From Pseudoxanthomonas sacheonensis (GTDB lineage: Bacteria; Pseudomonadota; Gammaproteobacteria; Xanthomonadales; Xanthomonadaceae), in contig NZ_PDWS01000001.1 in assembly GCF_010093305.1 (NCBI RefSeq), forward strand, positions 186,001 through 250,000: a stretch of DNA of 64,000 bases, given 5' to 3'. Position numbers and translations under genes: made by a program. A model generated the notes under the pieces. That model searched no databases, was not told the DNA's origin, and saw only the letters and a program-made list of their open reading frames with translations. Positions 18,844-62,518 of the stretch are shown piece after piece. Positions within the stretch are counted from its first letter, which is position 1; the number at the start of each line of letters is the position of its first letter.

Positions 18844-19142
18844 AAGCAAAAGCGTTTCGCGTTTTGCGCGAGTCACCCTTCGACAAGCTCAGGGCATGCT
18901 TTTCTTTGAACGGCAAAGAAAAGTAACCAAAAGAAAGCCGCCCCCGTATCAAGTACGGGGCAGGCTCTACGTCGCGCCCGGCGATGAAGCCGCCGGGTCC
19001 GCAAGCAGGCCGGGAATTTCCGTAAGACACATCCCTGTATCAAGTACAGGGCAGGCTCTGTGTCTACGGAAACGGCGCACATCCTTGTGCGCCGCCCTTG
19101 CGGGGTTTATCCCGGCCTGCTTGCCGCGTCTCACGGGGTTTG
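18844..19142 (+). repeat. Long multi-hairpin repeat element, copy L1 (with nested palindromes)
   Basis: About 299 bp, homologous to L2 (50504-50731) and L3 (62294-62518). Order of conserved parts: AAAGCGTTTCGCG, the perfect hairpin CTTTTCTTTG/CAAAGAAAAG, GTAACCAAAAGAAAGCCGCC, hairpin CCCGGCG/CGCCGGG, CCGTA-GACACA/TGTGTC-TACGG, CGGCGCACA/TGTGCGCCG, and TTGCCGCGTCTCACGGGG. L1 is longer because short segments are inserted after GAGTCAC, after GCCGCCC and inside the GACACA hairpin loop; two inserts share ATCAAGTAC and GGCAGGCTCT. The element fills most of the 587 bp gap between convergent ppc and uup. The rest of that gap holds only the family G and I pieces and featureless sequence. Confidence 0.88.
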
Positions 19143-23523: not shown

Positions 23524-23730
23524 GTAGGTCGGGGCTACGCCCCCGACCTCGGGGAGGCGGACGCATTCGGAAGCACGCATCAACGCCATCGCTGCGCGCG
23601 TCGGCCACGTAGGCCTGCCCCGCACTTGATAGGGGGACCGACCTGCGGCGGTGGTCAATCGGGGGCACGCCAATGAAAAAGCCGCATCGACTTCATTACC
23701 GTGCGGGTCGGGGGCGTAGCCCCGACCTAC
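23524..23730. repeat. Pair of inverted family C repeats with intervening segment
   Basis: GTAGGTCGGGGCTACGCCCC (from 23524) and the reverse arm GGGGCGTAGCCCCGACCTAC (ending 23730) flank about 155 bp that contains CCTGCCCCGCACTTGATAGG, a sequence related to the insert found in L1. No open frame in the segment looks real. This accounts for the 332 bp gap between the lipid operon and the SDR gene. Confidence 0.7.
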
Positions 23731-50503: not shown

Positions 50504-50731
50504 GAGCAAAAGCGTTTCGCGCTTTGCGCGAGTCACTTTTCTTTGAACGGCAAAGAAAAGTAACCAAAAGAAAGCCGCCCTAACGTCGCGCCCGGCGATG
50601 AAGCCGCCGGGTCCGCAAGCAGGCCGGGAATTTCCGTAAGGCGCATCCTGCGCCTCCGGAAACGGCGCACATCCTTGTGCGCCGCCCCTGCGGGGTTGAT
50701 CCCGTCCTGCTTGCCGCGTCTCACGGGGATT
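50504..50731 (+). repeat. Long multi-hairpin repeat element, copy L2
   Basis: About 228 bp, the least decorated copy with L3. It has the 11 bp perfect hairpin ACTTTTCTTTG/CAAAGAAAAGT, CCCGGCG/CGCCGGG, GGCGCA/TGCGCC, CGGCGCACA/TGTGCGCCG. It lies between lemA and the M48 protease gene and takes up most of that gap; the remainder is a family H unit and about 80 bp of plain sequence before the protease gene. Confidence 0.9.
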
Positions 50732-62293: not shown

Positions 62294-62518
62294 TCAAAAG
62301 CGTTTCGCGCGTTGCGCGAGTCACTTTTCTTTGAACGGCAAAGAAAAGTAACCAAAAGAAAGCCGCCCTAACGCCGCGCCCCACGATGAAGCCGTGGGGT
62401 CCGCAAGCAGGCCGGGAATTTCCGTAAGGCGCCTCCTGCGCCTCCGGAAACGGCGCACATCCCTGTGCGCCGCCCCTTCGGGGTTTATCCCGGCCCGCTT
62501 GCCGCGTCTCACGGGGCT
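62294..62518 (+). repeat. Long multi-hairpin repeat element, copy L3
   Basis: About 225 bp, undecorated as L2. Compared with L1 and L2 the hairpin CCCGGCG/CGCCGGG has become CCCCACG/CGTGGGG on both arms. It starts 5 bp after the TetR stop and covers most of the gap before the sigma-factor gene; the remaining 95 bp contain no clear feature. Confidence 0.9.

Follow-up and report, generated by a model that had tools for sequence, protein, structure and literature searches.

The repeated element that occurs three times in the window analysed here, a stretch of 64,000 nucleotides from Pseudoxanthomonas sacheonensis (contig NZ_PDWS01000001.1, positions 186,001 to 250,000), is probably a dispersed structured-RNA element of about 215 nt that is read from the minus strand, the strand opposite to that on which its hairpins were first drawn; we place the probability of this reading at roughly 0.55. 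Judged from its sequence, its most likely identity is a dispersed CsrA/RsmA-binding RNA, a proposal held with slightly better than even confidence, and the RNA may end in a three-stranded helix.

The three copies reported by the initial annotation, L1 (18844–19142), L2 (50504–50731) and L3 (62294–62518), were all found where it had placed them, and both of the compensated stems that it described are present: CCCGGCG/CGCCGGG reads CCCCACG/CGTGGGG in L3, and GGCGCA/TGCGCC reads GACACA/TGTGTC in L1. The CTTTTCTTTG/CAAAGAAAAG stem, said to be perfect in every copy, is indeed so in these three, but it is shorter in copies L013, L015 and L018 of the same genome and so differs among copies. A blastn search of the whole genome, made with a query that includes the 3′ module, gave 20 matches, L1 to L3 among them, which comprise 19 full copies and one half copy, and the same 19 full copies were recovered by a covariance model of the body. 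A collection scan with the core pattern returned 33 stretches, all from Pseudoxanthomonas or Xanthomonas. The searches of the genus and order and of the family, which used stricter filters, were made on samples of genomes, as were the class-wide hairpin-plus-tract search and the swapped-arm search described below. The element is present in 24 of the 25 Pseudoxanthomonas genomes searched, our own included, with 1 to 33 matches each, and a match was found in one of 16 genomes from other families of the order (E 9e-7). In the Xanthomonadaceae sample it occurs in 55 of the 198 genomes, which represent 27 of the 54 genera, and two further Pseudoxanthomonas genomes in that sample gave no match under the stricter filters. 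Phage records contained no match to the element, and the matches in 12 plasmid records are confined to the region of the 3′ module (19–26% of the query). At gathering threshold, Rfam reports in the window only an unrelated SAH riboswitch (RF01057; 15564–15644, minus strand, 57.6 bits against a gathering score of 37). We found no publication naming the element in title or abstract and none through motif strings, in a search that covers subscription journals thinly.

The element was initially described as a chain of hairpins; the hairpins exist, and what that description understated is the long closing stem, the branched body and the 3′ module. The body is closed and branched, with a covarying stem of 14 bp that holds three hairpins, two of which are adjacent and carry GGA loops. 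In L2, where the folded body occupies 50581–50727 (contig 236581–236727, minus strand, 171.8 bits with the body covariance model R1), this most striking covarying stem, absent from the earlier description, is 14–15 bp long, pairs 50615–50629 with 50700–50714 with one mismatch, and encloses a GGA-loop hairpin at 50631–50662 (loop 50646–50648, TCC on the plus strand), the hairpin GGCGCACA-AGGA-UGUGCGCC at 50663–50684 (loop 50672–50675) and a small GC hairpin without a GGA loop at 50685–50695. The covarying CCCGGCG/CGCCGGG hairpin lies at 50591–50611, the 3′ module at 50536–50573 and a terminal TTCGCGC/GCGCGAG hairpin at 50516–50532, all on the minus strand. The L3 body, also on the minus strand, spans 62369–62515 (contig 248369–248515, R1 169.6 bits), and that of L1, which carries a palindrome of about 26 nt in one GGA hairpin loop, spans 18967–19137 (contig 204967–205137, minus strand, R1 156.6 bits).

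The covariance model that the initial annotation had called for, together with a comparison with shuffled alignments, shows covariation above the shuffled level. The 19 own copies were aligned, R1 was built from their bodies, and 135 matches were collected, 117 of them distinct, from the 83 loci supplied (L012, L019, L021–L050, L097 and L104 were omitted as overlapping or partial). Across these 117 copies, in an alignment that was fitted to the model from the own copies and therefore favours that structure, 44 of 51 base pairs show changes on both sides, against 27.0 in shuffled alignments, 95.9% of cells are paired against 79.3%, and none of 500 shuffles reaches any of the five measures used; sliding one side of a stem by one to three columns lowers pairing to 38–52%. 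The own copies alone, whose alignment was not fitted to the model and whose structure was drawn from one of its rows, are 98.3% paired and show two-sided changes in 18 of 51 pairs, where shuffles average 9.9 and none of 500 reaches 18, while the number of pair types, one of the five measures, does not exceed that of shuffles in this smaller set. The long stem contributes two-sided changes in 12 of its 14 modelled pairs over the 117 copies and in 8 of 14 over the own copies. For one copy, L005, the folding z-score is −8.1 on the minus strand and −9.7 on the plus strand, none of 200 shuffles being as stable on either, and chance is excluded as the source of the fold. The earlier claim that base pairing rather than a reading frame is conserved is thus borne out by the pairs that vary on both sides. 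Protein-coding frames were considered and rejected: all six frames are interrupted by stops, each in at least 14 and up to 19 of the 19 own copies, and the copy lengths include all three classes modulo 3. The stems are not all preserved in every copy: in L1 an insertion breaks the lower stem of the 3′ module on one side.

It is on the question of strand that the first reading has to be reversed, because the wobble pairs put the folded molecule on the minus strand and not on the plus strand where the hairpins had been drawn. Half-changed pairs are mostly A·C in the original orientation and G·U on the other strand. Read on the minus strand, the 19 own copies hold 18 G·U against one A·C and the 117 copies 106 against 50, a wider set in which A·C cells are not rare; the lower stem of the 3′ module, a helix independent of these, gives 62 to 4 over 84 distinct modules. 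From this excess of G·U over A·C it follows that the folded molecule is the minus strand of the window, and the count is of general use as a method, since it reveals which strand folds and here overturned the first reading. Wobble asymmetry alone cannot tell RNA from single-stranded DNA, in which G·T is also favoured, and folding energy does not settle the strand, as both strands fold far better than shuffles and the plus strand has the stronger z-score. The R1 scores of the two strands were dropped as evidence because R1 was built from minus-strand sequence.

The conserved loops point to the probable ligand. On the minus strand, GGA lies in or beside the loops of the two adjacent hairpins in 111 of the 117 distinct copies (the GGCGCACA-AGGA-UGUGCGCC hairpin of L2) and in 115 of 117 (its neighbour at 50631–50662), and the neighbouring GC hairpin has GGA in its loop in none of them. 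The motif GGCGCACA-RGGA-UGUGCGCC includes ACARGGAUGU, a stretch of the CsrA consensus RUACARGGAUGU known from the literature, and the element has the GGA in a stable hairpin loop by which CsrA/RsmA-binding sRNAs are recognised. Two CsrA genes are present in the genome (PF02599 matches of 92 and 54 bits, cut-off 27). In a transcript, the paired GGA hairpins would accommodate a CsrA/RsmA dimer. Each copy could then serve as a decoy of the global regulator or, at positions between genes that run in the same direction (flgF and flgG, for example), as a site of local binding. The accessible part of a 2020 study reports no homologue of CsrB or RsmX/Y/Z in Xanthomonas genomes (PMC7694677); if the RNA reading is true, the element provides a candidate class of RsmA-binding RNAs for the Xanthomonadaceae.

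Downstream of the body, the folded strand continues with UUUCUUUU, six nucleotides, and then the hairpin UUUUCUUUG-loop-CAAAGAAAAG. In L1 this 3′ module lies at 18899–18936, with arms at 18899–18908 and 18914–18923 and the pyrimidine tract (AAAAGAAA on the plus strand) at 18929–18936; in L2 the arms are 50536–50545 and 50551–50560 and the tract 50566–50573, and in L3, where the module spans 62324–62361, they are 62324–62333, 62339–62348 and 62354–62361, in every case on the minus strand. Tract and purine arm (AAAGAAAA) correspond when read in parallel, the relation expected of a pyrimidine-motif triple helix; an antiparallel pairing could reach seven of eight positions only if the two were shifted. 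The parallel match is exact in 54 of the 62 modules of the family and inexact in 8, and tract and arm change together: an A3GA4 arm is accompanied by U3CU4 in 29 of 32 cases, A3GA3 by U3CU3 in 24 of 29 and A2GA3 by U2CU3 in the single case. Hairpins with the swapped arm A4GA3, located with a pattern that lacks the tract (8 of 369 sampled genomes, eight genera), have U4CU3 in 8 of 11 cases, U4CU2 in two, U5CU3 in one and U3CU4 in none. There are at least three kinds of such joint change, and the copies are related, so these counts do not represent independent events. Six family hairpins have the tract on neither strand, and loci L149–L178, found with a pattern that already contained the tract, were listed apart and not used for the match between tract and arm. 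A direct-repeat (strand-exchange) alternative for the tract was rejected, since 56 of 101 distinct modules (these including the biased L149–L178) are mirror-only, 3 direct-only, 27 both and 15 neither. Of the 265 hairpin readings, 159 lacked a tract upstream, most of them being the same palindrome read on its other strand, and were excluded from this count.

We infer from these joint changes that the tract would occupy the major groove of the 3′ hairpin and form with it a triple helix of U·A-U and C+·G-C triples, which would cap or stabilise the end of the RNA. Of 84 distinct modules, 63 have a spacer of six nucleotides between tract and hairpin; the spacer pairs to form a lower stem, whose five inner pairs are all kept in 53 of these. 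Because this lower stem is conserved, the tract would have to span the deep groove across some six pairs, with almost no linker, for the predicted triple helix to form; A-form RNA, on the principle of the pseudoknot, perhaps allows such a crossing. A purine-motif triple helix on the plus strand would show the same mirror symmetry and is disfavoured, the evidence on strand being the sole argument against it. The triple-helix module would be what is novel in the element, and it provides a clear example, from comparison, of a predicted bacterial RNA triple helix, in which the covariation is of mirror type and not Watson–Crick.

Many copies in Pseudoxanthomonas are arranged head to head, forming 34 distinct pairs, 26 of them with a spacer of 55–70 bp. 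One member starts with a GGCACGG head and the other with GGTCCGG in 27 of the 34, the other seven hold variants, and no pair consists of two members of the same exact type. In G358, a distant genome, oppositely oriented body matches also lie side by side. Copies or pairs occupy the same two places in the flagellar locus in L079, L080, L081, L083 and L109 (all Pseudoxanthomonas). One separates the divergent genes flgA and cheV and the other lies between flgF and flgG, which are co-directional, the genes being named from Pfam domains and gene order; at flgA–cheV a single member was found in L083 and L109. The 5.3 kb units between pairs had been considered as rRNA operons, gave no Rfam match, and contain flagellar genes instead. 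Among the 20 neighbour proteins of the own copies that were scanned no functional theme is apparent; they include PEP carboxylase, ABC-F, LemA, M48 peptidase, TetR, an ECF sigma factor, DksA, MazG and prephenate dehydratase.

The element is also a target for smaller repeats. What was initially taken in L1 as a pairing CCGTA/TACGG extension, along with the extra length of this copy, is really the result of three inserted short palindromes: CCCTTCGACAAGCTCAGGG at 18876–18894 (no strand assigned), which causes the broken lower stem noted above, CCTGCCCCGTACTTGATACGGGG at 18942–18964 (minus strand) between body and 3′ module, and a second mini-palindrome at 19033–19055 (minus strand) in the GGA hairpin loop. 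The palindrome of about 26 nt, which sits in a loop or linker, occurs in own copies L010 and L016 and is absent from their orthologues in Pseudoxanthomonas sp. CF125 (the pairs L010/L116 and L016/L101). The mini-palindrome, CCTGCCC-GTACTTGATAC-GGG, has one more copy, with 2 mismatches, outside the L elements at 23614–23636 of the window. The flank beyond the 3′ module in L001–L020 is often one of three other palindromic repeats, and the left flanks contain simple repeats like GATCTTGC/GCTTTTGC that recur inverted on the other side.

Such a mosaic brings into view the main rival to the RNA reading, a non-autonomous mobile DNA element of MITE or REP type that folds as single-stranded DNA when it transposes or is replicated and in which the GGA loops form part of a transposase signal. 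The multicopy, dispersed distribution with its many head-to-head pairs, the insertion of other short palindromes, the eight Y1-type transposase matches in the own genome (seven above the Pfam cut-off) and a wobble asymmetry that suits one DNA strand as well as RNA are all in keeping with it. We consider it unlikely nonetheless, since the 3′ hairpin motif, the sole feature looked for, occurs in none of the eight Y1_Tnp loci of about 3.3 kb each, the twin GGA loops match a known RNA-binding site, all six loci fetched from CF125 are orthologous to own copies, with long alignments to the own loci, and the flagellar places are common to five genomes. At one orthologous place (L020/L114) the own genome has a divergent element of 125.8 bits where CF125 has a typical one of 170.7 bits, and the outer flanks align at 93–95%. 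Copies that can be compared with relatives are mostly inherited in place; the element would have spread in the past, in several species as head-to-head pairs of two subtypes.

A second rival would explain the compensatory changes as purely mutational, one arm of a palindrome being copied onto the other by template switching or conversion with no selection on structure. The simultaneous difference of several pairs in the otherwise similar L005, L007 and L012, and the scarcity of half-changed states, are what arm copying would leave, and it may contribute to how the arms change. As a full account it is improbable: the half-changed states that do occur carry the strand bias given above for the own copies and the lower stem, which is not predicted on double-stranded DNA, the non-palindromic GGA loops and the parallel match of tract and arm are still kept, and the orthologous elements L012/L085 are identical in sequence where their near flanks have diverged.

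The weakest link of the RNA reading is the putative transcript of the folded strand. No conserved promoter was seen by eye in the flanks or in the pair spacers of 41–199 bp, both of which are variable and low in complexity. The gene beyond the 3′ module, as called by a simple reading-frame script and not from annotation, runs towards the element in 17 of 20 own copies and in 34 of 49 single copies of the genus with a called gene, so that read-through from it would mostly give the plus strand and not the folded one. A 3′-end element of the neighbouring gene on the plus strand (a terminator, RNase III site or mRNA stabiliser) would fit this orientation in the own genome and the very stable plus-strand hairpins with their stronger z-score, but there is little to recommend it, since wobble pairs and GGA loops indicate the minus strand and the orientation bias is weaker over the genus. 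Integron attC sites were considered as a possible identity and dropped.

Elements with this 3′ module reach beyond the Xanthomonadaceae. A search for the strict hairpin-plus-tract pattern in 274 sampled genomes of the class found it in 9, our own included, from 8 genera, and the reversed control gave no hit among the matches listed. R1, which lacks the 3′ module, was applied to 26 loci outside the family (23 located by module or similarity, 3 as TwoAYGGAY matches) and matched the body with E < 1e-4 in 9 of them, from five families (genomes G369, G358, G247, G438 and G332; best L197, 2e-9), the other 17 having no body match below that value. The predicted fold upstream of the 3′ module in 26 outside-family loci has two or more GGA loops in 11, one in 5 and none in 10. 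L149, L158, L155, L180, L181, L183, L179 and L119 have the same 3′ module under a predicted upstream fold without a GGA loop, and several have a different apical hairpin, which suggests that the predicted apical domains are exchangeable. The Rfam family Bp1_684 (RF02421) has loci with the same hairpin in Burkholderia and Paraburkholderia (L120:1537–1649 and L121:1538–1615); in the former it starts inside the 3′ arm of this hairpin and may be cut short at its 5′ end.

Tentatively, these elements could together form an ancient, unnamed superfamily of dispersed bacterial RNAs in several gammaproteobacterial families. Its members would combine a constant base with an apical domain that can be exchanged (twin CsrA sites in one class) and with an RNA triple helix at the 3′ end, like the triple-helix ends of some eukaryotic long RNAs; their many copies in a genome would jointly set the level of free CsrA/RsmA, and the flagellar pairs would couple motility to it. 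Should the RNA reading be true, a range of gammaproteobacteria would have up to a few dozen scattered CsrA decoy or docking sites that present Rfam models do not report.

The initial annotation, which knew of no published name for the element, was nearly right: the body resembles the candidate RNA TwoAYGGAY (RF01731, clan CL00106), though below the Rfam threshold. Both have two adjacent GGA-loop hairpins closed by a stem, and TwoAYGGAY belongs to the same Rfam clan as RsmY. In the accessible parts of the two sources, TwoAYGGAY is a candidate RNA in a table (PMC2864571) and is proposed, in a 2014 paper, to bind CsrA (PMC4333381). Its model scores 31.8–36.6 bits (threshold 43) on copies of the element in the sister genomes G007, G009, G011 and G016 and 41.5 bits, again below the cut-off of 43, in Aeromonas beside the same 3′ module; it has no match in the own genome at E 0.01 and none in the window at gathering. 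Because it scores below the family threshold, the element was not filed as a member of TwoAYGGAY, from which it differs in having a third hairpin and a covarying 3′ hairpin as well as the pyrimidine-tract module, and in its many dispersed copies. Stronger TwoAYGGAY matches in other families of the order (L122 and L128 in G030, L123 in G027) have no pyrimidine-tract module in the stretch examined and no good R1 match, and L122 lies at the apex of a long inverted repeat.

The sRNAs that sequester CsrA/RsmA (CsrB, CsrC, RsmX/Y/Z and RsmU) share with the element several GGA motifs in hairpin loops. Each is encoded by one gene copy or a few, equipped with a promoter and terminator of its own, whereas the element has about 20 dispersed copies with two GGA loops each and no promoter seen by eye. 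RsmU of Xanthomonas, according to the available portion of its description, arises by processing of the 3′ end of an mRNA (PMC7694677). With REP, ERIC and MITE sequences the element has in common that it is intergenic, multicopy, palindromic and mosaic with other repeats; it differs from them in a much larger conserved fold, strand-specific wobble pairs and conserved loops. REP elements associated with Y1 transposases (RAYT) carry a conserved GTAG-type guide adjoining the hairpin. The putative triplex, finally, has its closest parallels in telomerase RNA and MALAT1, in whose triple helices a U-rich strand likewise runs parallel to an A-rich hairpin strand, with a C+·G-C step. Unlike these, it is predicted from joint changes alone and in dispersed elements of bacteria, and its tract precedes the hairpin, with the six-nucleotide segment of the lower stem between them.
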